In this document: piece by piece, positions 2,596 through 26,861 of the stretch
How the letters are laid out: the number at the start of each line of letters is the position of its first letter
Position numbering within the stretch: the stretch's first letter is position 1
Source: a virus
Virus record (IMG/VR): IMGVR_UViG_3300017991_001621
Span: 1-30,506 of that record
Strand: one strand, 5' to 3'
Length of the DNA stretch: 30,506 nt
The notes under the pieces: generated by a model
What the model was told of the DNA's origin: nothing
The model's input: only the letters and a program-made list of their open reading frames with translations
Databases searched by the model: none
Translations under genes and position numbers: made by a program

Positions 2596-5500
2596 TTAAA
2601 AGACATACGATTCCCGGCGCTTCTCCGTACTGCTCCGCCTGGCCGGCACGTCGGGCTTCTTACTTTCCATGTGATCAACTGCTTTTTCTATCAGCTCCAT
2701 AACCTTTTTGTCCTTCCTCTCGTCCGGGTAGTTCGATCTTCTGCGGACCGCTACAATCTTCTTATAGGTATTCTCAAGCAGATTATGGTAGGGATGCCTG
2801 TTCTCTGAATGCTGCCGTTTCATGGCGTCTGAATAGGCAGAGAAAAACCGGGCCGTCAGCCGGTTGTTCATGGTCGAAGGCCGGGCGAACAGATCTCCAA
2901 TAATGGGGATGTCCCAGAGTCCTGCAGGACGATCCTTGACGTTCTTTCCCATAAGATTTTTGATAATCAGTCGATCTGCAGCCCCAATTGTCCTCCGGTA
3001 GAAACCTCCGGTGGTCTGGTTCACAAAGTATTCAAATTGAGCAGGAGAGATGCCCGTACTTCTCAGTGGTTTAAACGCCATGATTGACTTTGATAGTTCA
3101 GTGGTCCATTCATTCGCGATGGTCCAGGCTTCCTGGGTTTGTCGGGCATACTTCGGTTCGATGGGGCGACCACTCCAGGATCGATTTGCCTTGATCTCCA
3201 TGATAGTCGAAACAAACGGCCAGCTGGTGGGGAGGGGAAGCAGCTCAGAAAAGTGTTGATCCCAGAGAAACCGCAGATATTCCTCGTCTGCCTGCCGGTC
3301 TCCGATCCCCTCGAGCAGAGCAGCATGTAGACCTCCATGGAAAACAGCGCCCAAGAGGAACGGTGTCACGACCTTTAGATGGTCGCCATTGACCCAGAAA
3401 TGGAAATAATTGGCTCTTTCCCAGTCGTTTAGCTTCTCCCATTCCTCGTCATCTCGGAGAAAATAAGAGAGAAGGGATAGTCCGGTAATCCACCCCAGGG
3501 CCTTGGCCATACGCTTTCCGGCGTTCTTCCTGGAGGATTCCGCCTGGTACTTGCCATGATATCCTGTTATTTCCTTTCCGAAGAAGCCACGAATAAACTT
3601 GCTGAACCCCTGCACATTCGCATTATAGAAGGGAATGATCTGGTTCAGCTGCCTTCCCCAGTATCCGGCCCGGGCAAAGTCTGTCGTAATATCCTGACTG
3701 GCCCTCGCTGCCCGGATAAACGCCTCCTCGGGATCTCCGGTCTGATTCATGACCTTTTCATAGACAGCCTTGAATTCCGGGATTCTGTTGGTGTTCTCAA
3801 AGGCAGAGAATAACAGGCGCAACCCTTCAATGGGATGCTGCAGCCCGAACTGGATGGTTTTACCTTTAATATTGGATTCTGCCAGCCTTGCCATTTTTTC
3901 CAGCTTTGTCCGGTCAAAACCGGCCATGGTGGACACGACGCCTCCGGCCTTCATATACAGATCTGCATACTCGGGATCCACTCCCAGTTTTTTTAGGGCT
4001 ACAGGTAGAATGTCTTTGTCCTTATAGATCTCAGCCAGAAGTCCTTGAATACTACGGAACGGATGTGCTTTCCCGGATTCACTCATGACCGTTGCTTCTA
4101 TGGCATCCCGGATTACATTTCGAAGAAGGATGAAATTCGGGTTCAGACCAGTGGCGCCCAGGCGGATCCCCCTACAGAACGGAGCCATTACCTTGGCAAT
4201 TCCGACCAGGGGAGCAGCTTCAATAGATTGAATGAAGTTGAACAGATCCGGGTGCAGCTCGTAGAATGCTCGTTTCCCATTCCTCCAGACAGACACGATG
4301 GGACGACCTTTCTTGACGTGGACGCCATTATGCCAGAACTCAACCAGGGTATCGCCCTCGATCTCAAGCATCTGATTCTTATTAGAAATGTCTGCACCCA
4401 TCTTTGTAAGGAGGCCCACGATCTCTTTCACGCTATGTTTGGTCACCTCGGGAGGTGGATCTGTTTCACGGATCAGCGGAGCCATGCCCTGTAGGTGAGC
4501 AAAAGAGGCGAACGCATTCATGACCCTGGCCTTGGTAGCCCAAAGAACAACCCGTTCCGTGTGTTTGATCCATGCATCCATGTAATACTGCCATGGATAA
4601 TCGGATCCTTTCGCTCTCATATACGGTTTATTCTGATTGGCCATGCCTTTCTTTCCGTGTCGGCTCTCCCAAACTACATCGTGGGCGATTTCCCGGAGGA
4701 AAGGTACGTAGTGGGGATGACGCCAGCGGAAATATTTCAGAGTGGCATTAGAGACTCCACCTTCATGGTACACCAGCTGCATGAGCTGGTCGAAATAGTT
4801 GTTGATCTCGTCTCCCCAACGTTCAAAATGAGAATTCCCTAACCGTTCCACCACGGCCTTGGCCTGAGCCAGCGAAATACCCGGATTCTTCGGTTTGAGC
4901 ATTTGAACCTTACGCCTCGCCTCCTTGAAAATCTTAATTCTTTCTTGCTCGTCGAGAAAGCCAAGGTCCGTGTCACCGTTGACAATATCCACATTCTCGT
5001 CCAGCTCGGGGTGGTGGATCCAGTCGATCGCATGTCTGGCATACAGATAGGTGATCAGGTCCTGAATTTGATACCCCTCCTGGTCGCATTCCCGCAGCGT
5101 CTGAACCGCTCCTTTGGACAGATCCATGCCCATGCCGGTGCGAATGTCATACACACCATGGTTCAGCATCTGTTCGGCCATAGCGCCAGCCTTCATGTTA
5201 TAGGCTCTGAATACGGTTATAGGATTCAGCCTGGCCGGGAGAGAATGATATCTGTCTCCCAGGGTGGATTTCAACAGGTATTGAATCTCCGCTGCAGAAT
5301 CAGAGAATTTCGACTTAAACTTGGACCATGCTGAACCGACCTTCTTTTTCCGTACCTCTGAAGGCGCCTGCTTGAACTGCCTTACTTTCTCTTTGGTCCT
5401 GGCAGCATTCGTTCTCGGCCGGTGGAAACCCAATTGGGACTTGGTGAACTCAACCGCGTCTTGAGCCACGAAACTGCCAACCATCTGCTTGGCCTTCCAG

Positions 5501-8500
5501 AATCGTCCACTCTTGTCGTATTCAGGGAGAACAGACGTTTCGAAATACCTTGTAAACATGGGAGCAAAGGCCTCGGCTCCTGAATCCGAAATCCAGAGCC
5601 TGACGAACTCCGCAAATCCTTCTCCTGTCCGGCGCTTGTTCTGGTCGTAATCCAGGTCCCGCAGTTCGTTCATCATGTCCGGGGTGGCTCCCTTTTCCAG
5701 CCACCGGAGTTCATTATCTCTGTAATCTCCGAATATTTGATTTTGGAACCAGTGAGCTGTTTCGTGAAAGTCAGCGACAGGACTGGCAAAATTCCGCCCT
5801 TTTATCATGTTGCGGTCGCTGTTGATTTCACCCATTTTGTCCCGCCTCCACCGGTCCTGCATCTTAGCCCTAAAGGTGATTTCAGGAAAGAGGGCGCGAA
5901 ATCCACCAGCCAGGTCATTGCTGCTCATTCCCTTAGCACCAGTTCTGTCCTGGTGATAGTCGATCAGCTCCGAAGATCGATACATATCCTGCCGCGGCTT
6001 TTTTGTTTCCATGTCACTATGCCGCAGATCTGAAGCCCCTTTCGGTCTCGGCTGTCCCTGTCCCAGGTCGGATGCGGGGATCCGTAGCATCGATGTAGAA
6101 CCAAAGGAGGGAGAGGACTGGTTCGCAACCGCCCACCGATCAGTGAGTTTTTTAATGATGTCCAGAGCCTTTTCTTCCACTCCGGGGATATAGAACATAT
6201 CCTTGAACTGCACTCGTTCATATAGAATGCCCAGTTTGCGGAGGGTATCGCGCATAGGAGTTTTTGTCCCGATTAGCTCGATGATGTCGCCACCCTGCCA
6301 GTATCTCCGCATCAGCTGAATACCATTTTCCAGCTCCACCGGCTTCCTGGAATTCATAACCGCATTATAGACCTGTTCCGGCGTCTCCAACTTCCGGTTT
6401 ACTCCAATAGCTGAGAGAACCGCGTCTACGGCCTTGTTTGGGATCCGAACACCAACAAATCGCTGCCCATCTACGGTCGTGGCCCGGACGATCTTTAGAG
6501 GCGCACCGTGTACATTACTCTTCATCCGGTTCCACAAGGGGAGGATCATGCCTGCAATCAAATGAACCTCCTCTGTTCGAATGGCTGGATACTCTTTGAC
6601 GTGTTTCTCCCACCAGGCCTTAAAATCCTTGTTTTCCTTCTTAACGGGTTTGAACTTAGCCTGCAGGTCTGCATGGCTTGTGATCTCGCGGGCCCCCGTG
6701 TATCGATATTCATAGAACCGGCGCTGGATCCGGCCCGTCTCCGGATCCGTCTTTGTGGCTGCCTCCTTGGTGATGACATAATGGCCAGAGTGTGTATTTT
6801 TGTGTACATCGAAACCGGCCTGCAGCATCTTTTCTGCATCTTCCCACTTCAATGGAGTGGTCTGAACGTCCCGCTCCATTTCTATGTGTTCGGTTGTGGC
6901 GCCCACGGCTTTGTCTTTACGGATCTCCGTGCGGTTGATCAGCCGAATTTGCTTCGAAACCAGATCCTCTACGCCATCATCAAACACGCCCTTCTCTTTG
7001 GCATCCTCCACCAGGGCAGAAAAAATCTCATGATAATGTTCATGAAGCGCATTTTGCTCGTCTGCATCCAAAACAAGTATTCGGTTTAAAAACTTATTTA
7101 TATTTGTTTTATCTCCTTCATTTATTTTGTATGATCCATATTCATCCATGTAAACAACATTCATATTGAGAAGGGTCTGGATCGGATTATCAATACCGGG
7201 AACCTCCTGGCCGTTCAACAGGCTTGTGTATAGGGCAGCCACGGCCAGAGAACCATAATCGGAACTGTAATCATATTTATCCAGAACGTCACCGCTACCT
7301 GCGGATCCACGCTGGCCTCGGGTCAGTGCGCCCAGAGATCCCAGGCGCTTGGCGATTGTAGAACTAAACCGGGATTCTCCGCCCAGGTCCATAGTCAGAA
7401 TTATATATTCCGGGGGTTGAGCTTGATTGCTTCGGTGACCACGGCCAAACTGTTGCATCTGCTGATCTGCGGACCAGGACAGTTCCATGGTGATAAACAC
7501 ACGCTTCTGCTGGTTTTTCGCCCTCCTGCTGGCATGGAGAGAAATACCCTGGCTGGCAGCTGCAGAAACGATGGCAATTCGTTTCTTCCCACTCTGAAAG
7601 TTTTCCTCCTCCCATTTCGATGCACTCTGGCTACCGGCAGGTCCACGCCGTACCCATTCCTTCTTTCCTGTGTTTTTGTTTACCCGAAGGACCTTCTTCC
7701 TACCTGTAAGCTCAGCCACACGCCAAGTTTCATCCCCTGTCTTGTCGGCTTTGTCGTCAAAATACTTGATAATCTGATCCATGGGGTTGTCTGGAAGATT
7801 GAGGTCTGACAATGAATCCATAAGTCTTTGTCTCAGCTGTAAAGCCAACTTACTCTGTACGGGCTTCCCGTCTGGCCCTATCACTGGTTTGTGGACCACG
7901 TTGCCATTTGAGTCTTGTTCCTCTTGGAACAGGTTTACAGGAAAACAGTTTTCCAAATAATTGCCGATCATCTGTCTGGGAGTCAGGTCCAGGGCTTCAA
8001 GATCTTCCCCCTGCTCCAGGCGCTCCTGTACGGCTCTTTTCAGGGCTGCTTCACCAGTCCCGAACAAACCAATAATAACAGAATTCTCCTTCTTTAGCTG
8101 GGCTTCTGTCTGTTTAATGATAGTTGGAACCTTAAATGCCATAATCATCTGCCGGGCAAATCGCTGGTGGTTTCCCCATAACATTCGTATGGCCAAGGAT
8201 CGCTGCTTTTTCCCTGCATTTGTGGCCTCGATAGCTGCACCAATATTATTTACAATGGTTCTCCAAATCTCTGCTGAACTATTCCAAACCTCTCTCTGTT
8301 TGGGGGTCATTTTACCTTTAACTTCAGTATATTTAACACCTTCGTAGCTCAATGACCGGGCCAGATATTTGCCTTGGGCCTTAAGATCCCGGGCCACCAT
8401 TTCCATGGCGCCCATACCTCCGGTGTTCACTTCACTGATAAAGTCCTCAAATGAATCGAACTGAGTGCCTTCTCCCCAGAGTCCCAGGCGAACCATATAG

Positions 8501-11500
8501 CCCATATTGGCCAACTCTGTGGCGCCAGTAGCAGAAGCATAGAGGACACGGGCCTTGGGGAGCAGGTTCTCCTGCAGATCAACCACCGTAAGACCGGTCT
8601 GGGTAGGCTTCTTCAATCCCTTGCCAGTGAACGCATTCTTGGCCTTGTGGCCTTCGTCGAAAACAATAACACCATCCGGCCCGAGCCATTCCACCAGCTG
8701 ATCCAATCGATTCTTCTTGATGAGAGTGGCGTAAGTACAGAAAATACAACCGTCACCCATTTGTACCGGGCCCTTGGAAGGCGCGACTTTTTTATCATTC
8801 AGGACGCCCAGGGGAATGATATGGTCAATTCCCAAACCTTCCTTTTCTCCAAAGTCTCTCGCTGCGTCATCGGCCAGGTCCTTACTGTATGACAGCCATA
8901 CGGCACGACGACGACCATGATTCCAGTTATCAAGGATTGTGGCTGCAATCTGAATCCCTTTACCTACACCGGTCCCATCACCCAGGGAAAAGCCCATACG
9001 GTGCCCGCTTGGAAGCATAATATCGTGACATTGGCCAGCCAGAGACACGGCTTCTAACTGCAGGGCAGAAATAATGGGATTTTTCATCCCTTTCAGGTCG
9101 GGTTTGTATTTGATGTCCGGGGTTTCAATGGCAGCCATGGAAGAAGATTCCACGATCTTGCCAGGGTGGGCTTTACCGCCTTTTAACTTGGAAGGAACAT
9201 AATCGACGAATTTACCAGCGGATTCCTCTTGTCGCTTCTGCCTGCGCTCGTAATCCGTCTCAAACTGTACATTTACTCCAGGCCCGCCAGGGCTGCCAGT
9301 AGGTTCTGGGCCAGGCGCAGCTGGTTCTGCTTCTGGTTCTTCAACAGATTCGGATCGTTCAGCGGACTCTGATCCACGTTCTGTGCCAACTGCAGGACTT
9401 GGCGCTTCAGGGACGGATCGTTCTCCAGGTTCTCGATCCACCTGTCCACCACGTCCAGGGGAGGTAGTTGAAGTTCCTCCGCCTCCGCTTCCAGCTGTGC
9501 CGGATCCTCCTCCGCGACCGCCTGATACGCGCTCTTTAGGAGATGCCACAGGTTCTGTTCCAGCCTTGTCAGTGTCACTTTCTTCTGTGGCTGCTGTTGC
9601 AGGCTGGGCTGCAGCGGAGATGGCGGCTCTTGTTGGGATGTTTTCGATACTTTCAAGGACTTCCTCCAGACTCTGGTGTTCAGCGACATAGGTTTCGTCA
9701 GATATTGCCTCTGAGAATCTTGAACGCTGAACTTTGTCGATTACCAGATAAATTGTACCAAAATTCGTGCCATATTTACGATACGCCTCTTTGGGATTTT
9801 TTATCATCGCCTGGACGGTGTACTCTTTCCCCAGGTTGTTATACCAATCTTGTGCGATCTGTCTGTCTGGCCATGCGGATTCACCCAGAATGGCCACCAA
9901 ACGGCCCCCGGGAGCCAGTCGGCGCAATGCTTGGTCTATATGGCGGAATCCATACTTGGCGCTGTTTTTGCTCTTGCTGAGACGACCACCAGTAGAGGAG
10001 AAGGGAGGATTCATAATAATGGCCGTTGGCCGAACATCATCCGGAAGGACATCGTCAAGAATTTCTGCGTCGAATCCTGCGTTCTTTTGGTAAAGCGGTT
10101 TCAAGTTTAGTCTGTCCAGAACGGCTGTACGTGATTCGTCAATCTCGTTGGTTATGACATCGGCAAACGGCTGAACGGTTACGGCCAGATTCCCAGTACC
10201 AGCTGAAGGTTCCAGGATAATATCGTCTTTTTGTACGTCCAGCATAAGACCGGCTGCATAGGCCATGGCCGGGGGAGTGCTAAACTGTTGAAAATCATCC
10301 TTTTCGGCTGTCCGGTGTGTTTGAGTTGGAATGCGTTTTTGTAGATCTATCAGTTTGTCAAGAAGTTCTTTTCTTTTCTCTGGGCTTATTTTCTTCCGAA
10401 TCCGGTAGAAAGTATTGTCCACTTCTTCAACACTGGGTTCATGTTCGGTTATCAGCTCCCGGACATACTTATTTACCCCTTCTTCCAGGGCATTATACAT
10501 ATCCTGGCTCTGGAAGATGCCGTCAGCTCTCTTTCCTCCGAATGCTCTCTCGGCCATTCTGTTGAGAGCTGGATTGTCTTTAATGACGCCTCCGGCCTTC
10601 ATCAGTTTATAAACTTCGTCAGCAAGGATGCCTTGAGGGTTATTGTATTTGTCTATCAGAGCTTCACCCTCTCCCTTCTTCGGGATCACAGATCCACGAT
10701 CCTTTGTCAAGTCGGAAGGTTTGAACCCTTCTTCTGGCTCTTGGCTTTCTCCCTTCTCAACATTCTTGACAATGTTGTTTATTTTCCCCTGGGAACCCCA
10801 ATCTATATTGTCCCAATACTCTACTGCGAGTTTCATTGCTTCATTGGACGTTTTTGCTTCCCCAACAACTGTTTCTTTGTCGCCTTCTTGGTGGATAACC
10901 TTAACGACTTGGTCTTTCGTTCCGGCATTAAACTTGGATATATAAACCGCATTATCAACTATCTTAGGATCAAAATCATCCAGCCACGCATAGGGAGTCT
11001 GAGGTAAAGCCTGGGGGTCGAACGTAAAACGATGCTTATAATTCGTCTCTACCGGCGCCTCGGCTTTCACTTCCGGGATCTGTGGACTTTCTTCCTGTTT
11101 CGGCTGCTCGGGACGCTGCTTCTGTTTTTCTGTCTCCTGGGCATGCTGTTTGGCCTCAGATAATGAAGACAGCCAGTCCTGCATGGCTGTTTCTTCTTTT
11201 TTCTGGCCTGTCTGCTGGAATGCTCCGGCCAATCGCTGCATTACAGAGGTGTATTCTTGTTCACCATATAAGATTTCGCCTAATGCCTCTGCTCCCTTAA
11301 AAAACTCTCCCCTGCCTACATTTCGATGATGTCTATACATCTGCTGTCTGGCACTGGGAATCATCTCGTTAATCTTGCGCTGCTCTCTTGTCCCTTTCTT
11401 TTCCAGGTCTGCAAGAATACTATAAAGCCTATCTTTAGCCTTTGGATCTCCGCGCCATCTATTGTGAAGCTGTTGGAGTTCATTGATGGGATTCTGCTCC

Positions 11501-12729
11501 TGGATGGTCATAGCTTCTTCCCACCAGTCTACATATTCCTGTCTCTCTGCAGGAGACATTTCATAAAGAACATCCCTAAGAGTATCCCAATCCTCCTCTG
11601 ACGGCTCGATTTCCTCCCATTCTTCACGCTGGTACGCATCGCCCAGGACGTCCTGAATATCCGCATTGATCTTCTTTTGTGAATTCTCCAGAATCTGTCG
11701 GGTTATTTCTTCCGGAACTCCATGCTGACGCAGGTCTGAGACACCCTTGTCGATCGCGACGGACGTGCCACCACCGACGATCGCGCCGATCAGCCCTTCG
11801 TAGAGTACGTTTTTGATGATTTCCCACGCAGATTCCGATCGAATCCCGGCAAAGTTGGCAATTCCTGAGTCAGCTGCAGACTGCAGCATTTCCTGAATAG
11901 CCTCCTCTGCCGTCTTGATCAGAGTACTCCGCAGTACGCTTCCGTATGATTTTAAGAAGATATCCAGGCCGACCTTTTCCAGAGCGCCTTCGGCAAAGCC
12001 AGAACCAGAAGATATGTCTCCGGCCTTCTCAGGATCCATGCCTGTTGCCCGGGCCTCCTGGTACATCCGTGATTTCTGCATCACACCGAACAGGGCAGCT
12101 GCAGCCATGGGGCTTTTTGTGGCTGCAGAAATACCCACGGCCATGGCCAAAGACGCGCCTCCAGATCCAATATCCTCAAAAAATCGCTGATATCGTCTGT
12201 CACCCCTGGGGAACATAGAGGAGACCTTTTCCAGGTTCTTCTGGGCCACTTGAGTTCCCATCTGAACCATGGATTCATCCAAGGAGGACCGTTTCGCAAG
12301 GGAGGCAATGCCCTTTCTGGCCAGAACGTAGCTCTCTCCAATGAACGGTACGACTTTCGAAACTGCAGATGGAACGGCCGTGTCCGGATCCAGCTCCGCA
12401 CGTTCTCCCATTTCCTGCAGGATCCCACCGGCCACAGAGGGGAGGGAGGCGAACATTCTGCCTGCGCCCCTGCCGAGACTGGTTCCGGCTTCTCCTACGG
12501 TCTTGGCCACATCCGCAATGCCCCTGCCCATCTTCCTGGCCATCATATTGAGTGGACCGCCTTCCGGCCTCGCCTGCGGAGAAAAACGGGTTTCCAGAGC
12601 CTCAGAGAGCTGCTCATCGTCATATTGCGCATAGGACGGATACTTAGTCCTGATTGCCTGCAAGATCTTGGCATCTGGATATTTAGAATACTCTGGATGC
12701 GCGTTTTTGAACTGGGTTAAAGGCTTCAC
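2596..12729 (-). CDS. Giant polyvalent ejection protein: methyltransferase, SBNO helicase, metallopeptidase, LPD38-like
   Basis: This encodes 3377 residues from a GTG whose bases overlap the upstream TGA (GTGA), with GGAG upstream. Domains in order: an N-terminal start typical of polyvalent virion proteins (YSKYPDAKILQAI), then Gly/Ala-rich amphipathic segments to about 340; an N6-adenine methyltransferase (LEPSAGTGN 839-847, NPPF 907-910); a Gly/Pro/Ser/Glu-rich linker, about 1014-1152; a Strawberry-notch-type SF2 helicase (GTGVGKG 1252-1258, DEGH 1358-1361, QFGRGHR 1760-1766); an HExxH peptidase (His2322, Glu2323, His2326, likely third ligand Glu2371 or Glu2374); and an LPD38-like region, about 2470-3110. 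The methyltransferase plus helicase pairing is known from P1 DarB, an injected antirestriction protein. Its place after two smaller virion-like genes fits a T7 gp16-like ejected protein. Motifs are seen; delivery and protection are inferred. Confidence 0.9.
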   Translation of the reverse strand: MKPLTQFKNAHPEYSKYPDAKILQAIRTKYPSYAQYDDEQLSEALETRFSPQARPEGGPLNMMARKMGRGIADVAKTVGEAGTSLGRGAGRMFASLPSVAGGILQEMGERAELDPDTAVPSAVSKVVPFIGESYVLARKGIASLAKRSSLDESMVQMGTQVAQKNLEKVSSMFPRGDRRYQRFFEDIGSGGASLAMAVGISAATKSPMAAAALFGVMQKSRMYQEARATGMDPEKAGDISSGSGFAEGALEKVGLDIFLKSYGSVLRSTLIKTAEEAIQEMLQSAADSGIANFAGIRSESAWEIIKNVLYEGLIGAIVGGGTSVAIDKGVSDLRQHGVPEEITRQILENSQKKINADIQDVLGDAYQREEWEEIEPSEEDWDTLRDVLYEMSPAERQEYVDWWEEAMTIQEQNPINELQQLHNRWRGDPKAKDRLYSILADLEKKGTREQRKINEMIPSARQQMYRHHRNVGRGEFFKGAEALGEILYGEQEYTSVMQRLAGAFQQTGQKKEETAMQDWLSSLSEAKQHAQETEKQKQRPEQPKQEESPQIPEVKAEAPVETNYKHRFTFDPQALPQTPYAWLDDFDPKIVDNAVYISKFNAGTKDQVVKVIHQEGDKETVVGEAKTSNEAMKLAVEYWDNIDWGSQGKINNIVKNVEKGESQEPEEGFKPSDLTKDRGSVIPKKGEGEALIDKYNNPQGILADEVYKLMKAGGVIKDNPALNRMAERAFGGKRADGIFQSQDMYNALEEGVNKYVRELITEHEPSVEEVDNTFYRIRKKISPEKRKELLDKLIDLQKRIPTQTHRTAEKDDFQQFSTPPAMAYAAGLMLDVQKDDIILEPSAGTGNLAVTVQPFADVITNEIDESRTAVLDRLNLKPLYQKNAGFDAEILDDVLPDDVRPTAIIMNPPFSSTGGRLSKSKNSAKYGFRHIDQALRRLAPGGRLVAILGESAWPDRQIAQDWYNNLGKEYTVQAMIKNPKEAYRKYGTNFGTIYLVIDKVQRSRFSEAISDETYVAEHQSLEEVLESIENIPTRAAISAAAQPATAATEESDTDKAGTEPVASPKERVSGGRGGGSGTAGSGGGGTSTTSPGRGGQVDREPGERSVPEAPSPAVGTERGSESAERSESVEEPEAEPAAPGPEPTGSPGGPGVNVQFETDYERRQKRQEESAGKFVDYVPSKLKGGKAHPGKIVESSSMAAIETPDIKYKPDLKGMKNPIISALQLEAVSLAGQCHDIMLPSGHRMGFSLGDGTGVGKGIQIAATILDNWNHGRRRAVWLSYSKDLADDAARDFGEKEGLGIDHIIPLGVLNDKKVAPSKGPVQMGDGCIFCTYATLIKKNRLDQLVEWLGPDGVIVFDEGHKAKNAFTGKGLKKPTQTGLTVVDLQENLLPKARVLYASATGATELANMGYMVRLGLWGEGTQFDSFEDFISEVNTGGMGAMEMVARDLKAQGKYLARSLSYEGVKYTEVKGKMTPKQREVWNSSAEIWRTIVNNIGAAIEATNAGKKQRSLAIRMLWGNHQRFARQMIMAFKVPTIIKQTEAQLKKENSVIIGLFGTGEAALKRAVQERLEQGEDLEALDLTPRQMIGNYLENCFPVNLFQEEQDSNGNVVHKPVIGPDGKPVQSKLALQLRQRLMDSLSDLNLPDNPMDQIIKYFDDKADKTGDETWRVAELTGRKKVLRVNKNTGKKEWVRRGPAGSQSASKWEEENFQSGKKRIAIVSAAASQGISLHASRRAKNQQKRVFITMELSWSADQQMQQFGRGHRSNQAQPPEYIILTMDLGGESRFSSTIAKRLGSLGALTRGQRGSAGSGDVLDKYDYSSDYGSLAVAALYTSLLNGQEVPGIDNPIQTLLNMNVVYMDEYGSYKINEGDKTNINKFLNRILVLDADEQNALHEHYHEIFSALVEDAKEKGVFDDGVEDLVSKQIRLINRTEIRKDKAVGATTEHIEMERDVQTTPLKWEDAEKMLQAGFDVHKNTHSGHYVITKEAATKTDPETGRIQRRFYEYRYTGAREITSHADLQAKFKPVKKENKDFKAWWEKHVKEYPAIRTEEVHLIAGMILPLWNRMKSNVHGAPLKIVRATTVDGQRFVGVRIPNKAVDAVLSAIGVNRKLETPEQVYNAVMNSRKPVELENGIQLMRRYWQGGDIIELIGTKTPMRDTLRKLGILYERVQFKDMFYIPGVEEKALDIIKKLTDRWAVANQSSPSFGSTSMLRIPASDLGQGQPRPKGASDLRHSDMETKKPRQDMYRSSELIDYHQDRTGAKGMSSNDLAGGFRALFPEITFRAKMQDRWRRDKMGEINSDRNMIKGRNFASPVADFHETAHWFQNQIFGDYRDNELRWLEKGATPDMMNELRDLDYDQNKRRTGEGFAEFVRLWISDSGAEAFAPMFTRYFETSVLPEYDKSGRFWKAKQMVGSFVAQDAVEFTKSQLGFHRPRTNAARTKEKVRQFKQAPSEVRKKKVGSAWSKFKSKFSDSAAEIQYLLKSTLGDRYHSLPARLNPITVFRAYNMKAGAMAEQMLNHGVYDIRTGMGMDLSKGAVQTLRECDQEGYQIQDLITYLYARHAIDWIHHPELDENVDIVNGDTDLGFLDEQERIKIFKEARRKVQMLKPKNPGISLAQAKAVVERLGNSHFERWGDEINNYFDQLMQLVYHEGGVSNATLKYFRWRHPHYVPFLREIAHDVVWESRHGKKGMANQNKPYMRAKGSDYPWQYYMDAWIKHTERVVLWATKARVMNAFASFAHLQGMAPLIRETDPPPEVTKHSVKEIVGLLTKMGADISNKNQMLEIEGDTLVEFWHNGVHVKKGRPIVSVWRNGKRAFYELHPDLFNFIQSIEAAPLVGIAKVMAPFCRGIRLGATGLNPNFILLRNVIRDAIEATVMSESGKAHPFRSIQGLLAEIYKDKDILPVALKKLGVDPEYADLYMKAGGVVSTMAGFDRTKLEKMARLAESNIKGKTIQFGLQHPIEGLRLLFSAFENTNRIPEFKAVYEKVMNQTGDPEEAFIRAARASQDITTDFARAGYWGRQLNQIIPFYNANVQGFSKFIRGFFGKEITGYHGKYQAESSRKNAGKRMAKALGWITGLSLLSYFLRDDEEWEKLNDWERANYFHFWVNGDHLKVVTPFLLGAVFHGGLHAALLEGIGDRQADEEYLRFLWDQHFSELLPLPTSWPFVSTIMEIKANRSWSGRPIEPKYARQTQEAWTIANEWTTELSKSIMAFKPLRSTGISPAQFEYFVNQTTGGFYRRTIGAADRLIIKNLMGKNVKDRPAGLWDIPIIGDLFARPSTMNNRLTARFFSAYSDAMKRQHSENRHPYHNLLENTYKKIVAVRRRSNYPDERKDKKVMELIEKAVDHMESKKPDVPARRSSTEKRRESYVF
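9273..9656 (-). other. Candidate overprinted ORF in the linker of the giant gene
   Basis: In a second minus-strand frame there is an open stretch ending with TAA at 9273. It opens at an ATG at 9689 without an evident RBS, or at a TTG at 9656 with GGAGG six bases upstream (127 residues). The product is Leu/Gln/Glu-rich and reads like amphipathic helices, for example LEQNLWHLLKSAYQAV and VVDRWIENLEND. It covers almost exactly the low-complexity linker of the main frame. The region is GC-rich and built of Pro, Ala, Gly and Glu codons, which yields Leu, Gln and Asn codons when shifted, so chance is a real alternative. Confidence 0.3.
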
Positions 12730-13760
12730 TTAGTCTCCAGCAGGTCCAGGATCCCGAACGGATCCTCCTCTTTTTGTTTGGACTTTGATTTTTTGCCTGC
12801 CATTCTGCCCAATGAAGAAGGCTTTGTTTTTGGTGCAGCTCCGGTGACAGCGTCAAGCTGCAGTTTGTTTTTTCCTTTTCGGCCCTTAGACCCTCCATAG
12901 TCGGCCATGGTGGAATTCATGGGCACAGACATTGGAACACGGCCTTGATTTTCTTCGTGGTACAGCATAAAATTACTCAGATCCCGGAACAGCTTCTCGT
13001 CCTCCTCCGTCCACTGGCCGGATGCAATCTGTTTTTCCAAGTGGTCCACGGCCTTTAAATACTCTTGGAGCAATTCTTCCTTATAAGGTTCCAGGCTGGA
13101 AATCTCTCCGAATTCGTCATAAGTGGGGAACCCGCCCTGGTTGGCTATGGCTGCAGCTCCCTGGCGATACCTGGCTAAAATCTCTCCACGTTGTTTCAGT
13201 CTCGGTTCGTCTGTTTTTGAAGTACTCCGGCCTCTGTTTTGGCTATTGATCCTCGCCACTTTTTCCCGGGTTTCCAGCTCTTTGCCTTTGTATTCCTTCT
13301 CCCATTGCCGGTCTCTCTCTTGGTCATACAGCGTCTTAAAACGCATATACTGACTGGCAGGAAGGTGGGATTTTCCGGATCTGGAGAAAAAACCTCCCAT
13401 GGCCTTGTCCCACTCCGGAGGAACGGGATACATCTCCCTCTCAACATTTTGTGGATTGATTTCCACGTTCGGATCAGCAATCAGGTCCATCATTCGACCC
13501 ATAATGTTTGTTCGGGATTCGGGAGTAATATCAGGGGTGTTGCCCATGGCCTCCAGAACACTGAGCTTTCGATTGGTCATGTCCCGTCGATCCTGGCGTT
13601 CCACGGTATTCTGGTATCTCTCATCCTCCCTTTGCCATGCCTCGTCTCTCCACTGCTTTTGACGCATTTCCTCTTTTCGACGAAGGATGTCACCTGCAAT
13701 CATGTCAGACGCCTGGGCCATCATGGTCAAGGCTGAATTCTGCCAGTCTCTCTGTGCCAT
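12726..13760 (-). CDS. Coiled-coil internal virion (ejection) protein, probable
   Basis: This encodes 344 residues from an ATG preceded by AAGGA nine bases upstream. Residues 20-65 are a highly charged Arg/Glu/Gln helix, probably a coiled coil. The middle (about 145-200) is again Lys/Arg/Glu-rich. The C-terminus is Lys/Ser-rich and ends in an acidic LLETK. No enzyme motif is visible. The stop overlaps the GTG of the giant gene by four bases, so translation is probably coupled. In T7-like phages the ejection proteins are encoded as a row of three with the largest last. By position and helical composition this would be the middle one (gp15-like). Sequence homology to T7 gp15 is not evident to me. 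Confidence 0.6.
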   Translation of the reverse strand: MAQRDWQNSALTMMAQASDMIAGDILRRKEEMRQKQWRDEAWQREDERYQNTVERQDRRDMTNRKLSVLEAMGNTPDITPESRTNIMGRMMDLIADPNVEINPQNVEREMYPVPPEWDKAMGGFFSRSGKSHLPASQYMRFKTLYDQERDRQWEKEYKGKELETREKVARINSQNRGRSTSKTDEPRLKQRGEILARYRQGAAAIANQGGFPTYDEFGEISSLEPYKEELLQEYLKAVDHLEKQIASGQWTEEDEKLFRDLSNFMLYHEENQGRVPMSVPMNSTMADYGGSKGRKGKNKLQLDAVTGAAPKTKPSSLGRMAGKKSKSKQKEEDPFGILDLLETK

Positions 13761-13772
13761 GGATAGGAATCC

Positions 13773-14270
13773 TTATTTCGGTAGTTCGGCCTGTTGCCCC
13801 TGTTCCGGTGTCAGCATCCCGGACTGATACAGCATCATAGCCCTGGTCAGAGATCCTATTTCCGGGGTAAAATCAAACTGGCCATGCTGGAACTGTGCCT
13901 GGGCATTCTGTGAGCCCATGAGCATATTGTGATAATTTAGCAGCTGGTTATGACGTTCCTTTTCCAGACTCACGTCCAGGTCTGCTGTGGCCCGTCCTGC
14001 TTTACTGGCAAATCCATGAAGGCCGGACGTTACCATGCCAGCTGGCATTTTATTCGCTGCAGCCCATGAACGGAAGGAGGCCATTGGAGCTGCCATGCTC
14101 TCCTGGATCCGGCGCTGTCCCTGTCCGCGGAGCTGCGCCATGTCTCCCGGACTCATAACCAGTTCGTCTTTGTGCTTCCTGGGATCATACATTTTTCCAC
14201 CGCCAAAGCCCAGGACCTTGTTCAGAGCGCTTACGCCTGTACCTATGGCCATCATTGCAAGCGGTCCCAT
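13773..14270 (-). CDS. Small internal virion (ejection) protein, probable
   Basis: This encodes 165 residues from an ATG with AGGAG six bases upstream. The N-terminus is hydrophobic and Gly-rich (MGPLAMMAIGTGVSALNK, then LGFGGGK), resembling the membrane-active N-terminus of small ejection proteins. The middle (about 90-125) is a helix rich in Ala, Gln and Asn, and the C-terminus is Gln/Met-rich (LTPEQGQQAE). It lies twelve bases before the 344-residue gene and two genes before the giant. That order suggests a T7 gp14-like member of a three-protein ejection set. The call rests on composition and context, because no diagnostic motif is visible. Confidence 0.55.
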   Translation of the reverse strand: MGPLAMMAIGTGVSALNKVLGFGGGKMYDPRKHKDELVMSPGDMAQLRGQGQRRIQESMAAPMASFRSWAAANKMPAGMVTSGLHGFASKAGRATADLDVSLEKERHNQLLNYHNMLMGSQNAQAQFQHGQFDFTPEIGSLTRAMMLYQSGMLTPEQGQQAELPK

Positions 14271-14651: not shown

Positions 14652-14960
14652 GTTGTTCTTCTTTTCTTTGCGCCGTTCCCTTCTTTCTTCCCGGCGTTTT
14701 AGACGTTCTTCTTTACGGAGAGCCTTTATCAGCTCCCGTTCGTGTTCAGTTACTACTGCGACCATCTTCGTGCCCTTTGGCGCCTTCGCTGCGCGGATTC
14801 CTTTTGCCACCAATCCGGCAGCTGACAGTCCCAGTCCGGTCTTTACCATAAAGGCGCTGACCGGCTGCAGGAAGGGAACTTGTCCAACGGCGCACCCTGC
14901 AACCGCCACTGCGATACCTCCCAAGAACTTGGGGATCCGCTTCAAAAATCCCAGTTTCAT
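14649..14960 (-). CDS. Holin-like small membrane protein
   Basis: This encodes 103 residues whose ATG overlaps the stop of the NlpC/P60 gene (ATGA). Two hydrophobic segments (about residues 12-31 and 35-52) are separated by a short Pro-containing turn. The last 30 residues are a strongly basic and charged tail, rich in Arg, Glu and Lys, ending KKNN. Two membrane spans, a charged C-terminus, a size near 100 residues and a position beside a peptidoglycan hydrolase are the usual marks of a holin. No family-specific motif is visible, so a membrane-associated virion protein remains possible. Confidence 0.5.
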   Translation of the reverse strand: MKLGFLKRIPKFLGGIAVAVAGCAVGQVPFLQPVSAFMVKTGLGLSAAGLVAKGIRAAKAPKGTKMVAVVTEHERELIKALRKEERLKRREERRERRKEKKNN

Positions 14961-15430
14961 GACTCTGCCTCCTGTAACTTTTGTGCTTTAAATGGATCAT
15001 ATATGCCCAGAAGATCATCCCTTCGATCAACAGGACGGATCTTCATAAACGCATTATATTTACTGGCCTCAGACTCCGTGTCAACTGAACGGCGCCCGTC
15101 TCCTGCTTCGATCATTAAATCCATGTGATAACAGATTCCTACGTGTGTAGCCCTTCCTTCTCTGCCATAAAAGACCAGTGCGCCTTGTTTGGGCTCTGTA
15201 AGAACCAGATGAGGCTTCCCAAACTTCTTGAACAGCTGGTTCGCAGTCAGATAGGCATAAGGCCCCAGTTTTCCCACAGCCCGGAGCATTTCACACGCCA
15301 GATTGGAACAGTCAAATCCTTCCATAGGATCGTTTCCTCCCCAATGATAGGGGAGGCCGATAAAACGGGAAATATAGCCGACTGCCAGAGCTGCCAGCTG
15401 GTCATTCCTCGAAGAAGTCTGATTCATCAT
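14957..15430 (-). CDS. NlpC/P60-family peptidoglycan hydrolase (endolysin)
   Basis: This encodes 157 residues from the first of two adjacent ATGs, with GGAGG six bases upstream. The NlpC/P60 core is visible: PYHWGG, then GFDCSNLACEML with the catalytic Cys near residue 40, and a Gly/His block, ATHVGICYHMDLMIEAG, that carries the catalytic His. Members of this family cut the peptide stems of peptidoglycan (gamma-glutamyl or murein-peptide bonds). There is no signal peptide, so release would need a holin; the next gene is holin-like. The start overlaps the preceding one-TM protein by 29 bases. The alternative is a virion-borne wall hydrolase, but the neighbours favour lysis. Confidence 0.8.
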   Translation of the reverse strand: MMNQTSSRNDQLAALAVGYISRFIGLPYHWGGNDPMEGFDCSNLACEMLRAVGKLGPYAYLTANQLFKKFGKPHLVLTEPKQGALVFYGREGRATHVGICYHMDLMIEAGDGRRSVDTESEASKYNAFMKIRPVDRRDDLLGIYDPFKAQKLQEAES

Positions 15431-15894: not shown

Positions 15895-18689
15895 GCGTTC
15901 ACTCCAAAGACATTGATTGTGGGAGTCAACCTACGGACCTGTATCGAAAGATCGTCTGCTGAATCCGTTTCCAGGATCAATAAGAGATTGCGGAACAGAT
16001 ATAGAGGCCGATCGATTTTCAGGTCCACGGCTGCAGAGTTCAGGGTCATGGTAGACGTGGTCTTGTCCGCTACGTCGGCTGCCCATAACACAGGATCCTT
16101 GGCCGAGATAGTCACATCACAGTTGCCTTTTGCCATCAACTCTAATGATTCCAGTTTGTTATACCGTTCCGGGTCAGACATAATCAACTCTGTGATGAAT
16201 GACGCCTGCACGGTTTCGTCGAACGTCGTCTGGTCATGGTTGAACCGGAATAGCGTGGATATAACCATTCCCATAGGACCGGATTCTTGGGCCAAAAGAA
16301 TCAGATGTCCGTCGTACAGGTTAAATGCCTGTATCGGCGTAAGTCCAGTGGACCGTATATACCAGTGTTTGTAATCCACTTGAAAGGCCATGATCGTGTT
16401 AGACAGGACCAGCCATAATTCCCGGTCGATGCGGTTCCATGCGAAGAACGAATCTGTATCAACATGAGCCTGGTAGTATTGTCTCATGCGATGGGATCCA
16501 AGCATAGGCTGAGCTGCGCCTCCGGAGAAAGTGTAAACCTCATCCTTGTCCATGAAATACAGGACGCCCTCAATAACGATCCAGCCATTATCGGTATAAA
16601 GGCCAGCCTGGGTGAGAGCTACGTCTGTATAGAAATTTGTGCCTGAATACTGCATCTGAGTGATAGAGTGCCGTTTCAGGAACATGATCTTATTGTCTCT
16701 TTCACACACAACCCGGACGCTATCAGCTCCTCCGAACTGGGTCTGAGCAATATTCCCATTGGGAAACACGTCATATTGACTGGGGAGGCTGTATCTCGCT
16801 GCGTCTGCCTCATTGTTCTCTGCAGAATTACACCAGGCCCGGCCCTCTGCAATACAATAATGGGTATAGTCTGGGTTCGTGTCCAGGGTCCCGGTCGGAA
16901 TCCCTGTATATGATTCAAATGTCGTGGAAGGAAGATCCAGCAGATTGACGCAGAGAGTAAAGACCAGATAACGGGTTCCTGAATCATAGGCCTCGACCGG
17001 CTCCATGTAAAACTTCAACCATACCCAGTCTGACGGAGCATTAATGGCCGAAGATAAATCATCTTCAAAGTAATACTCGTTACTTATGTCGTTCGGATTT
17101 CCTACTGGATCCACCTTGCCGTAATAGGTTTCCTGTTGGTGTACCCGGGTAGAAACAACTCCATCACTTCCAATTACATCCACTCGACGACCAGCTGCAG
17201 CCCTGGCCCGGATTATCATCTCGCGACCCAGGTCGTCCACTTGTGACTGAATTGTATCGTCAAAGGTGTTGCCAATACACTGTTTCCAGTAAATATTTGC
17301 GTTATCTTCGTGATAATTATCGTTTGTTGCTGTTCCTGCATTATAAGCAGCTACGACCGTGTATGCTGAAAGCAGCTTTTTAGGATCCACATCCTCCATG
17401 ACATCGATCACATCGGCCACAATCCATGGGATTTCTGGATCCGCTGGATTATTCCCAGATGCAGACTGATACACCAGAAGCCCTACGCCTGTAACCCGGA
17501 CCCCTTCATTCCCGTCGAACCAGTTGGAATCTTCCAATTCAACCTGGAAGCGCCTGGCCAGACCCGTATAATCGTCTACATCGCCGATCTGGTCCATGGT
17601 ATCAAGAGGGATGGGGAGAGAGTATTGTCCGTTATCGAATATGAAAAATATTGCATAATAATAGCTGGACCGATCTCCGCCTCCTGCTCCTTCCTCACAT
17701 TCGAACAGTTCCGTAGTCACCGAATATGAGGGCCAGTCAGTGACTTCGGCCTTAAACAGATACCATTCGGACGAAAATATCCTTTCTCCGTCCTCCTCGA
17801 TGATGATTAAGTCGAAATAGCCGGTGTTCGTGCCGGACCCAGAGTCTGGGGAGAGAGTAATAACCAGAGATTGTGCAGAGGCCGGAGTAAAGGAAACCTC
17901 CAGCTCTTCCCAGGACCCACCGGCCGTATTGACTGTGTCACTGCCAAATGCCGAACTATCCGCAACAGCTCCACACTTTAGAATCGGATCATAGGCAGGA
18001 CCAGATGGAAGTAACACCCTGGCTTTGACTGTGTAAGCATAACCAGCCTTCATGGTGAATGCCGTTCGATAGACATACCCGGCGCCGGTGGTCTTGATAA
18101 CTTTCAGGCTGTACTGCCCCTCTGCAGCTGCGACACCCAGGCCGTCAGCATCTGCCTGTTGATCATATTGCGAAATAGTCGCATTGGATCCGGTGTATTC
18201 TGCAATCCCCCCGGAGAGGTCGTCATATAGGGGATAACACGCCAGGTCTGAGTTGATCGTCTTGTCACAATACCCGTACCACATGGGATGCGAACCGCCA
18301 GTGATCCGCAGCACACCCTTGAAGTAGTGAAATTTCAGAGTCACGTTGCCGATCGTCACGCCGGAAGGGAGGGTCAATGTCGTGGGTGTTTCGTTCTCGT
18401 AGCCGTCTCCGTCTCCGTCGTCATAGAGCAACCGTTTAACACAGTTGGCTCCGTAGCCGTCCTGATAGATGATACACCGGCCTCCGTCGTCGTTGGAAAT
18501 CTCGATTGCTGTCCGAATCTCACAGAAAGACTTTGAGAAAGACTCCACATAGCCCCGTACGGACTCAAACTCGCCCTCCTTGCCCATGCGAAAATTTACC
18601 ACTTCCTTGAACCGATTGTGTCCCAGGGCGTGTTCAGCGATATCCGAATACATGCTGCCAGGGAGAATGTCAAATTGTGCCCGCGGCAT
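15891..18689 (-). CDS. Tail nozzle-like structural protein with a carbohydrate-binding-like insertion
   Basis: This encodes 932 residues. The ATG overlaps the preceding stop by one base (TAATG). The N-terminal segment (HNRFKEVVNFRMGKEGEFES) and the C-terminal beta-strand repeats (FMDKDEVYTFSGG, WNRIDRELWLVLS) resemble nozzle or tail-tubular-B proteins of podoviruses, which close the neck below the adaptor. Residues about 160-300 interrupt this with a compact Gly/Thr/Ser-rich stretch containing GQYSLKVIKTTGAGYVYR and GSWEELEVSFTPASAQSLVI, the pattern of a CBM4/9-like jelly roll. Three adaptor-like genes precede it and support the neck role. The fold assignment is by pattern only. A structural protein is near certain; the exact class is less so. 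Confidence 0.75.
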   Translation of the reverse strand: MPRAQFDILPGSMYSDIAEHALGHNRFKEVVNFRMGKEGEFESVRGYVESFSKSFCEIRTAIEISNDDGGRCIIYQDGYGANCVKRLLYDDGDGDGYENETPTTLTLPSGVTIGNVTLKFHYFKGVLRITGGSHPMWYGYCDKTINSDLACYPLYDDLSGGIAEYTGSNATISQYDQQADADGLGVAAAEGQYSLKVIKTTGAGYVYRTAFTMKAGYAYTVKARVLLPSGPAYDPILKCGAVADSSAFGSDTVNTAGGSWEELEVSFTPASAQSLVITLSPDSGSGTNTGYFDLIIIEEDGERIFSSEWYLFKAEVTDWPSYSVTTELFECEEGAGGGDRSSYYYAIFFIFDNGQYSLPIPLDTMDQIGDVDDYTGLARRFQVELEDSNWFDGNEGVRVTGVGLLVYQSASGNNPADPEIPWIVADVIDVMEDVDPKKLLSAYTVVAAYNAGTATNDNYHEDNANIYWKQCIGNTFDDTIQSQVDDLGREMIIRARAAAGRRVDVIGSDGVVSTRVHQQETYYGKVDPVGNPNDISNEYYFEDDLSSAINAPSDWVWLKFYMEPVEAYDSGTRYLVFTLCVNLLDLPSTTFESYTGIPTGTLDTNPDYTHYCIAEGRAWCNSAENNEADAARYSLPSQYDVFPNGNIAQTQFGGADSVRVVCERDNKIMFLKRHSITQMQYSGTNFYTDVALTQAGLYTDNGWIVIEGVLYFMDKDEVYTFSGGAAQPMLGSHRMRQYYQAHVDTDSFFAWNRIDRELWLVLSNTIMAFQVDYKHWYIRSTGLTPIQAFNLYDGHLILLAQESGPMGMVISTLFRFNHDQTTFDETVQASFITELIMSDPERYNKLESLELMAKGNCDVTISAKDPVLWAADVADKTTSTMTLNSAAVDLKIDRPLYLFRNLLLILETDSADDLSIQVRRLTPTINVFGVNA

Positions 18690-19342
18690 TAATACTCTCC
18701 GTAGTCGTCCTCTCTTGGTCCGGGAGTCCCGGATCCTCCTGCAAACAGGGTAGTAATGTCCTGATCACCGGCGCCCAGTTTGAATAGCTCGATTTTCAGC
18801 TCCTCAAATCTCAGCCGGTCCTCCTGGTACATGGGATATTCATTGCTTAACTCTATGGCCGTCCCGTAAAGGAGAATCTCATGAATATGCTCCCATGGCC
18901 ATTCAGGAGACTTGGCTTCCGATGCTGCAGCGTCTCCATCCTTGTCCACCAGGGTCAGCCCTGAAGCGTAGTACCAGAGAGTGATAACCGTATCGTCTGC
19001 GATGTTCGCGAAATAAAATTTCCCTCCGAACTGGGTGAACGTCCGGTAACCAGCGTTCAGCTCCTCGTCGTCCAGGTTCATTTCGTCTGGGTGTTTGTAC
19101 ACATACACAGGCTCGATGCGGAATGCCTTGACGTAGTCAGTCGGCACGGACCAGTATTGAACCAGGGGATCCAGTGTGGAAAAATCCATTTCCAGCTCTT
19201 TGACCAGGGCATTTGTTTTCCGGTTCAGGTCATGATAGACCCGGTTCATGGCCCGGATAATGGCTGGCTTAATCGCCCTGGCCTTATCGATCTCGTTTCC
19301 CAGGCGAAAAGCCACATCGAAAGCCAGATCTTTTACAGTCAT
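18689..19342 (-). CDS. Adaptor / head-completion-like protein 3
   Basis: This encodes 217 residues. The ATG overlaps the previous stop by four bases. An N-terminal helical part (DLAFDVAFRL, then IRAMNRVYHDLNRKTNAL) is followed by beta strands with a Trp/Pro patch (YWSVPTDYVKAFRIEPVYVY) and a C-terminal helix (IHEILLYGTAIELS). This is the general layout of podoviral adaptor (gp7- or gp11-like) proteins that sit between portal and nozzle. The C-terminus is acidic and Gly-rich. It is the third of three adjacent proteins with this layout. Confidence 0.65.
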   Translation of the reverse strand: MTVKDLAFDVAFRLGNEIDKARAIKPAIIRAMNRVYHDLNRKTNALVKELEMDFSTLDPLVQYWSVPTDYVKAFRIEPVYVYKHPDEMNLDDEELNAGYRTFTQFGGKFYFANIADDTVITLWYYASGLTLVDKDGDAAASEAKSPEWPWEHIHEILLYGTAIELSNEYPMYQEDRLRFEELKIELFKLGAGDQDITTLFAGGSGTPGPREDDYGEY

Positions 19343-20160
19343 TCCACCAATCCGTTTGTTTTCAAAATAGCAGCCAAACGATTGTCCAGGGCGCTCAGAT
19401 CACTTCCCCCCTCTCCTTCAATGGCCCTGGCCTTTTTCAGCTCGATCATCCCTGCATCCACGATCAAGTTATGATATTCCTCGGGGACAATAGGGATAAT
19501 GGCATAGTGATATTCCTTTGTGTTGTCGAAAATACCAGATCCTTCCAGGGTAATAACTTTGGTGGATCCGACATAATCACTGCACTTATAAATCCCCTGA
19601 AGCGTAAACGTATTGCCTCCGGTGATTTCGTATATCGCCACATCGTAGCTGTTATACACATCATTGTCAGGGGAGGAGTTACCAGCAAGCGTGGCCGTTG
19701 TCGCGCTGGCGTATGTGGCCTTTCCCATGGTCAGATCCACCACACGACGACGATAACGGATTCTGACATCTGAACTGCTGGGCGCAGGATAAATGTAAAT
19801 TTCCCTTCCTTCCAGGCAGTACAAAGGTTCGGACGCGGCAGATTTAGCGTTAGGATCCGCATCGATATGGCTCCGGTCCTCTACTTCGATCTTTCCGGCA
19901 GGACGCCACACATCCCCTGAATCTTTCCGCTCCACTGAGATTAAGCGTAATGCCTCGCCGGGAAAGTCAATAGAAGCTGCCGACACACTGGCTTCCTCGA
20001 CGGTTGTTACCAATAATTCATGGTAGATTGGATAAAGAACCTGTGCGACATAGTGCATCCCCATATTGGCATACCTACGGAGAAGCATTGTTGGAATATC
20101 GCTTTCATTCTTGAGTTTAGCGTAATTCCTGATCGTGGATAGGATCTCAAAGGTATCCAT
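19339..20160 (-). CDS. Adaptor / head-completion-like protein 2
   Basis: This encodes 273 residues from an ATG with AAAGGA ten bases upstream. The N-terminal helices (ILSTIRNYAKL, then LLRRYANMGMHYVAQVLYPI) are followed by FPGEALRLISVERKDSGDVW, a strand block (LEGREIYIYPAPSS), and a C-terminal helix (YHNLIVDAGMIELKKARAI). The layout matches the genes on both sides. It is longer because of a beta-rich stretch (about 150-220) between the strand block and the last helix. Likely role: a neck ring joining portal and tail. It could instead be a tail terminator. No enzyme motif is visible. Confidence 0.65.
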   Translation of the reverse strand: MDTFEILSTIRNYAKLKNESDIPTMLLRRYANMGMHYVAQVLYPIYHELLVTTVEEASVSAASIDFPGEALRLISVERKDSGDVWRPAGKIEVEDRSHIDADPNAKSAASEPLYCLEGREIYIYPAPSSSDVRIRYRRRVVDLTMGKATYASATTATLAGNSSPDNDVYNSYDVAIYEITGGNTFTLQGIYKCSDYVGSTKVITLEGSGIFDNTKEYHYAIIPIVPEEYHNLIVDAGMIELKKARAIEGEGGSDLSALDNRLAAILKTNGLVE

Positions 20161-20163
20161 GGT

Positions 20164-26782: not shown

Positions 26783-26787
26783 AAAAA

Positions 26788-26861
26788 CCCCTTGCGATTC
26801 ACTACACAAATGGCCGGATTTACGCCATATTATACGCTATATGTAGTATAAGCGCAAGGGG
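26788..26861 (-). repeat. 9-bp inverted repeat spanning portal RBS and promoter -35
   Basis: CCCCTTGCG at 26788-26796 and CGCAAGGGG at 26853-26861 are perfect inverted copies. The left copy contains the portal Shine-Dalgarno sequence; the right copy contains the -35 box of the promoter upstream. Pairing would be possible only in RNA starting upstream of the promoter. Confidence 0.5.
26829..26857 (-). promoter_or_regulatory. Sigma70-like promoter for the portal/capsid operon
   Basis: On the minus strand a -10 box TATAAT (26829-26834) is a perfect consensus match. It lies 17 bases from TTGCGC (26852-26857), a weak -35 that matches the first three positions. Transcription would begin near 26822, about 40 bases before the portal ATG. 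This is the only such spacing I noticed in the intergenic regions. Confidence 0.6.

Follow-up and report, generated by a model that had tools for sequence, protein, structure and literature searches.

A giant phage protein joining a methyltransferase to a Strawberry-notch helicase as a probable DarB-like virion protein

We describe here a phage protein of 3377 residues in which an N6-adenine methyltransferase (MTase) of the gamma class and a helicase of the Strawberry-notch (SBNO) family are combined with a metallopeptidase of zincin type and an LPD38-bearing C-terminal part. The protein is probably (we put this at about 0.68) an SBNO-type, DarB-like polyvalent virion protein that would be packaged, ejected and methylate the entering DNA while its motor moves, and would thereby serve antirestriction. 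The reading as an ejected, DNA-methylating antirestriction protein is based on the precedent set by JC1 gp69, P1 DarB and the analysis of Iyer et al. (2017). If correct, the DarB-like strategy, in which the virion carries an MTase together with a DNA motor, extends to an SBNO form, which is found at 200 or more viral-contig loci and is barely represented among GenBank phages. New here are the extent of this form in viral contigs, its frequent place behind P22-type portals, the recurrence of the MTase-SBNO-HExxH-LPD38 order at several loci, and a cultured host, Sporomusa ovata DSM 2662, with a prophage-like locus of this kind.

The window, that is the whole stretch of DNA analysed, comprises 30,506 bases and is an entire virus record. 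Its largest ORF lies on the minus strand at 2596..12729, and a frame of this length has a chance probability of log10 P about -63 from base composition alone, so the single 3377-residue frame of the initial annotation is borne out. The ORF starts with GTG, and because this start overlaps the stop codon of the upstream 344-aa gene in a GTGA, coupled translation of the two genes is suggested. From the N- to the C-terminus the protein consists of a variable N-terminus, the MTase, a linker, the SBNO helicase, the metallopeptidase and the C-terminal part. A motif scan of the 3377 residues found each motif once: STPP at 817, LEPSAGTG at 839 (EPSAGTG at 840) and NPPF at 907 in the MTase; GTGVGKG at 1252, DEGH at 1358, SATGAT at 1399 and QFGRGHR at 1760 in the helicase; HETAH at 2322 and GEGFAEF at 2369 in the metallopeptidase. 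The catalytic motifs are thus intact. Pfam recognises AAA_34 (1187-1483, E 3e-105), Helicase_C_4 (1669-1922, E 1e-75) and LPD38 (3094-3254, E 6e-19), all over the cut-off, while the protein has no match in NCBIfam and a sequence search of the PDB with the whole protein returned 0 entries. The domains read earlier from the letters were in this way confirmed, the MTase and SBNO helicase by motifs, Pfam, PHROGs and a model of the MTase, the HExxH site by a modelled domain that aligns with zincin peptidases, and the LPD38-like end by Pfam. Near the N-terminus, aa 186-350 (11680..12174, minus) are weakly similar to the N-termini of the phage giants Skulduggery, VvAW1, Vibrio 1.232.O and D274 (domain E values of 5.6e-6 to 9.3e-11 by phmmer among 17 proteins). 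Residues 4-50 resemble the N-termini of D478, BA3 and L044, and a shared N-terminal capsid-targeting motif was considered; a profile built without the window protein failed to recover it at E <= 1 among 23,656 ORFs, and the motif is unsupported.

The MTase with a helical lead-in occupies aa 715-1035 (9625..10587, minus). It has no Pfam match; PHROGs DNA methyltransferase families match within 802-1035, and the sole PADLOC match of the giant protein is mad2 over 782-989. An AlphaFold2 model of aa 700-1060, built from 44 sequences, reached a mean pLDDT of 86. Its best solved matches include the M subunits of type I restriction-modification systems (EcoKI, StySJI), M.BseCI and M.TaqI, with TM-scores of 0.37-0.46 on the query; RNA methyltransferases appear further down the list, among many other methyltransferases. 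A sequence search of the PDB with the MTase profile found 4 sequences. The domain is an EcoKI/TaqI-like N6-adenine MTase with TP and NPP(Y/F) motifs, and NPPF is kept in all 75 MTase-bearing rows of an alignment of distinct loci, BS-TP4 and two plasmid proteins. The Pfam scan detected no LPD36 N-terminal to the MTase, where a conserved helical lead-in is present, and no target-recognition domain was recognised in the giant protein. A Gly/Pro/Ser/Glu-rich linker, defined by its composition, follows (aa 1036-1170; 9220..9624, minus) and leads into the SF2 helicase, which is fused C-terminal to the MTase.

The helicase (aa 1172-1970; 6820..9216, minus) is of the Strawberry-notch type, with AAA_34 and Helicase_C_4 and with Walker A, DExH and motif VI intact. 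Motif conservation extends to distant relatives: DExH and GR..R are each present in 77/77 SBNO rows (distinct loci, BS-TP4 and two plasmid proteins), and Walker A reads GK[GST] in 76/77 (L096 differs), a figure that is biased, the scan pattern having used the same motif. The SBNO profile found 0 sequences in the PDB. Behind the helicase, aa 1971-2196 (6142..6819, minus) resemble MTase-SBNO proteins encoded on plasmids of the Methylomonas type. For Strawberry-notch helicases Iyer et al. (2017) give a winged helix at the C-terminal end.

The metallopeptidase (aa 2270-2407; 5509..5922, minus) contains HETAH at 2322 and a glutamate at 2374. In a model of aa 2230-3377 (26 sequences, pLDDT 69) HETAH is helical, and the GEGFAEF glutamate sits on a helix further along the chain. 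Residues 2268-2407 of the model align with zincin peptidases in VIA-align (best Z 8.7, 130 residues, rmsd 3.8), with PPEP at Z 7.2-7.4 (120-123 residues, rmsd 3.3-4.0) and with ArdC at Z 4.7 (110 residues, rmsd 4.6); Foldseek alone gave no match at E <= 0.001. Judged from the model, the HExxH domain has a zincin metallopeptidase fold. HExxH and the glutamate are each kept in 21/26 alignment rows; two of the five exceptions are L028 and L042, whose slice had been cut below their HExxH. Of the 27 relatives that possess a C-terminal part, 23 have an HExxH between it and SBNO; two of the 27 (L042, L121) share identical SBNO stretches, and the four without the motif are L045, L123, L125 and L130.

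The C-terminal part (aa 2600-3340; 2710..4932, minus), within which LPD38 covers aa 3094-3254 (2968..3450, minus), is common to phage giants without a Pfam enzyme domain and matches 46/50,697 phage records. Among nine LPD38 phage proteins scanned with Pfam, four (PTXU04, Palmer, ct8d5349, HTVC034P) have no enzyme domain. The others carry an MTase only (D478, BA3), an MTase and ParB (ARM81mr), a helicase followed by an MTase (D274) or an MTase followed by SNF2 (VvAW1). Because LPD38 giants bear such differing cargo or none, we read the C-terminal part as the carrier: it may be a constant virion or ejection module, with the dyad and the rest as exchangeable cargo. Mapped on the SBNO tree, the LPD38 label changes at least 12 times, a count that undetected divergent C-termini would inflate; the pattern is in line with repeated joining or loss of the LPD38 part. 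The C-terminal profile found 0 PDB sequences. In BFVD the C-terminal fold has 79 matches at E <= 0.001, and many of the 50 listed are phage proteins named 'large polyvalent protein associated domain-containing', a label uninformative as to function.

A second contig, IMGVR_UViG_3300018080_000260 (G001, 46,622 bases), derives from the same phage, with 2 mismatches in 29,476 overlapping bases. Window positions 1-77 and 1031-30506 correspond to G001, and because the far end of G001 carries the window's first bases, the phage genome is circularly permuted and about 47.6 kb long. G001 contains genes of the integrase, ERF, RusA and terminase-small-subunit families, hence the phage is probably temperate. 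The window has neither a tRNA nor an Rfam match. No close relatives of the phage, in which a loss of the motifs might show, turned up in the collection: single-protein scans with the SBNO part, the C-terminal part, the portal and the gene at the terminase position found only the same phage, and the capsid query found the same phage plus one match of 24% identity on a 5-kb contig.

The giant gene stands in a late phage gene context, as the last gene of a P22-type portal/head/tail block. All members named here lie on the minus strand and were assigned by family matches: a P22-type portal protein (24860..26809), a major capsid protein (Phage_capsid_3, 22440..23690), three consecutive SU10-adaptor family genes (18689..20808; 18689-19342, 19339-20160 and 20164-20808), all over the family cut-off, and an NlpC/P60 cell-wall hydrolase (14957..15430). 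The usual number of adaptors per phage is one. A 165-aa gene (13773..14270, minus) and the 344-aa gene directly upstream of the giant (12726..13760, minus) take the positions of a small and a second ejection protein, and neither has a family match. None of the 20 other window proteins matched, at 0.01, any of 32 proteins with ejection, tail or head functions from other phages, and comparison of window proteins with the ORFs of 80 viral loci gave no match outside the same phage at 0.001, both being single-sequence searches and insensitive. Since the neighbouring proteins match no known ejection proteins in this low-sensitivity test, the 'ejection set' around the giant gene is positional only. 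Of the gp16-like slot in an ejection set that the initial annotation assigned to the protein, the place at the end of the portal/head/tail block therefore stands, but not the identity of the neighbours.

This arrangement recurs in other viruses. The context search covered 50 SBNO-type viral records hand-picked from 80 viral loci, near-duplicates, some short contigs and others being omitted. A P22-type portal is encoded in 28/50 (27 over the cut-off; this phage counted) and matched in none of the remaining 22, and a T7-type portal matched once among the 50. Portal and giant share one strand in 28/28 cases, and the giant lies downstream in 25/28, at a median of 15.1 kb; in L070, L071 and L085 it precedes the portal on the contig, an order to which a permuted contig could give rise. 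LPD38 was recognised by Pfam in only 15/50 records, this phage counted, and is therefore unnecessary for a phage-borne dyad.

The closest precedent for a virion location comes from the Burkholderia podophage JC1. Its gp69, and with it the DarB-like gp75 of Bcep22, is, like the window giant, a late-module podophage giant with methylase, helicase and LPD38 near the C-terminus. According to the JC1 report, gp69 has 4515 aa, LPD38 at 4195-4401 and methylase- and helicase-type domains, is called DarB-like by the authors and was identified in CsCl-purified virions by 51 unique peptides; JC1 also has a pfam13252 protein, the window's capsid family (PMC9144972). Unlike the window giant, gp69 has a COG4646 and HepA helicase instead of SBNO, an N-terminal transglycosylase-like domain and LPD3; it is likened here by description. 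The giant of Vibrio phage VvAW1 (3640 aa, 'DarB-like antirestriction' in RefSeq) shows the same order of MTase, SF2 helicase, HExxH and LPD38 and follows tail and putative DNA-transfer genes; it differs in a ResIII/SNF2-type helicase and is only about 22% identical over the matched C-terminal part. It is the helicase family that sets the window giant apart from the JC1 gp69 and VvAW1 giants.

The protein had been suggested as possibly a distinct class, a view that we do not retain. Iyer et al. (2017) describe the MTase-helicase dyad, its SBNO form 'in a few instances', the metallopeptidase and LPD38, and in their proposal the ATPase translocates along injected DNA, which the dyad modifies, and the metallopeptidase processes the protein (PMC5512222). 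The class is hence known, and the SBNO form was noted in the accessible text of that paper without the present combination being singled out. Among the papers listed in a literature search linking strawberry notch to phage, it alone appeared relevant; Parlo (PMC6606913) and Atu_ph08 (PMC6630229) are described as further podophages with giant DarB-like proteins, and the accessible parts of PMC11924767 and PMC11318856 mention DarB-like or polyvalent proteins and hold nothing further on SBNO.

P1 DarB indeed has the MTase and helicase pair ascribed to it, in the Pfam scan an N6-MTase followed by an SF2 helicase as in the window giant, but the helicase is SNF2 and LPD38 was not found in the same scan. 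It is reported as a virion protein of an antirestriction system, and its N-terminal 30 residues are able to target a reporter to the capsid (PMC9024508). The two proteins have no BLAST match at 1e-3, and hhalign gives E values of 1e-4 and 3e-4 with probabilities of 57% (179 MTase columns) and 39% (57 helicase columns), so that by sequence the relation to P1 DarB itself appears distant and falls short of recognisable homology over the dyad. T7 gp16 resembles the window giant by position, as the large last protein of the late block. However, the window giant has no Pfam match to a transglycosylase domain, and a separate NlpC/P60 gene lies upstream. Bacteroides phage BS-TP4 gp3 (5391 aa) is likewise a phage giant in which an SBNO-like helicase comes after an MTase, but it shares only 24% identity, sits on a long branch and is encoded directly before the portal gene.

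The SBNO form is widespread in viral contigs. A pattern scan of 2.9 million IMG/VR viral contigs gave 282 stretches, of which at least 200 are relatives, and the best 80 relatives were used (74 distinct, this phage included). An MTase precedes SBNO in the same frame in 72/74 distinct loci, the other two (L047, L073) being cut by the contig start, and the C-terminal profile matches 20/74. Uncut viral frames (n=55, stop to stop) range from 1494 to 6544 aa with a median of 3952. Among GenBank phages, tblastn with the window SBNO region matched 1/50,697 records (BS-TP4, 24%) and two other SBNO queries from viral loci matched 2 (including Acinetobacter phage MD-2021a, 24% over 45%) and 0 of 50,697; with none of the three queries did a GenBank phage match cover 80% of the query. 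A depletion of the SBNO form among isolates is nevertheless unsupported, because 200 loci in 2.9 million contigs, a lower bound, predict only about 3.5 matches in the GenBank set, compared with 1, 2 and 0 found.

Cellular relatives are also frequent. The best 80 of 209 relatives in a scan of bacterial genomes include 75 with an MTase and 8 with a match to the C-terminal profile. Stand-alone MTase-SBNO proteins of about 1,500 aa (L138-L181 and similar) are common among its alphaproteobacterial loci. Plasmid proteins of Methylomonas and Methylotuvimicrobium have MTase and SBNO in the same order as the window giant, with 41-42% and 34-35% identity. They differ from it in that conjugation genes adjoin on MEALZ_p, the window C-terminal part has no match and they form a separate SBNO group; a Methylomonas SnoC-wHTH protein is cited by Iyer et al. 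2017 (PMC5512222). A plasmid origin of the dyad, which such matches raised, was rejected on a quick SBNO tree (FastTree only; 123/157 rows, with 34 of 52 short cellular rows dropped), where the window falls outside the clade of Methylomonas plasmids and clusters, at 97% local support, with one Blastocatellia locus and two viral ones. The nearest viral relatives by this tree are L024 and L025. L024 (3864 aa) combines the dyad with InPase and GGDEF, and L025 (4817 aa) with ddrB-ParB and PBECR1. Two further loci, L121 from the cultured Sporomusa ovata DSM 2662 and L042, encode 3915-aa MTase-SBNO-LPD38 giants with identical SBNO stretches. The Sporomusa giant sits on a prophage-like locus, and the L042 record has a below-cut-off portal match 13 kb upstream on the same strand. 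With L121 in a cultured strain, packaging and protection become directly testable.

As an antirestriction protein the giant would be made late together with the head and tail genes, packaged, and ejected with the genome, and its own metallopeptidase possibly cuts it. The MTase-helicase dyad would then methylate adenines on the entering phage DNA as the SBNO motor travels along the duplex, and restriction systems would meet modified phage DNA. The conservation of the catalytic motifs also fits a regulatory or remodelling role. A translocase-type ATPase fused to a module in the last late-gene slot might, alternatively, be an entry motor: the C-terminal part would stay at the membrane while the SBNO ATPase pulls in or clears the duplex as it enters, and methylation would be secondary or mark DNA that is already inside. 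We consider this unlikely. Relatives keep a hydrophobic stretch near aa 3080 of the C-terminal part (in 22/23 rows with letters there the 15-residue Kyte-Doolittle mean is >= 1.3), but no 19-residue stretch of the giant protein reaches 1.6, the usual membrane-helix threshold. For the modelled C-terminal region, structural comparison gave a weak match to T7 gp16 (9jyy chain I; Z 5.6, 205 residues, rmsd 5.2), yet this score is within the range common for helical arrangements, there is no gp16 signal by sequence, and Foldseek finds no PDB match for the C-terminal fold at E <= 0.001; we treat the gp16 link as a lead only. Moreover, the four LPD38 giants scanned without a helicase imply that entry needs none. 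The T7 genome is pulled in by RNA polymerase. A self-powered entry machine, in which the SBNO motor pulls or clears the genome while the tethered MTase marks it, would be another enzyme-driven mode of genome entry and would make internalisation and protection one processive act; this more ambitious idea we find rather improbable.

It is likewise rather improbable that the giant is no virion protein at all and acts as a late intracellular MTase-remodeller, with progeny or host DNA as its substrate. In favour is the frequency of SBNO relatives outside phages: the window SBNO region matches 639/72,556 plasmid records, and among the best 80 bacterial loci the SBNO frame is shorter than 1,800 aa in 52, a number that includes frames truncated at contig ends. 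Against this stand the late-block position, the LPD38 end and the detection of the LPD38-bearing, DarB-like JC1 giant in virions. Related giants that join the dyad to effector-type domains (InPase and GGDEF in L024, ParB and PBECR1 in L025) could point to an offensive effector, which once injected would turn its dyad and metallopeptidase against DNA-bound complexes or proteins of the host, with antirestriction being incidental. The Pfam scan of the window giant, however, finds no nuclease or toxin domain, and we regard such a function as very unlikely.

Some minor observations concern other genes. Three window genes in or beside the structural block (353-2020, 2020-2562 and 21804-22346, minus) have starts that read by eye as secretion signal peptides. 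A signal-peptide-like start is also seen in a 1008-aa fibre-like protein (L012:14477-17503, minus), which has lectin-like and S74-chaperone matches below the cut-off. Such starts are odd for virion proteins. Finally, window positions 879-1153 contain 6.5 copies of a 42-base repeat, corresponding to a 14-residue repeat in a 555-aa protein.
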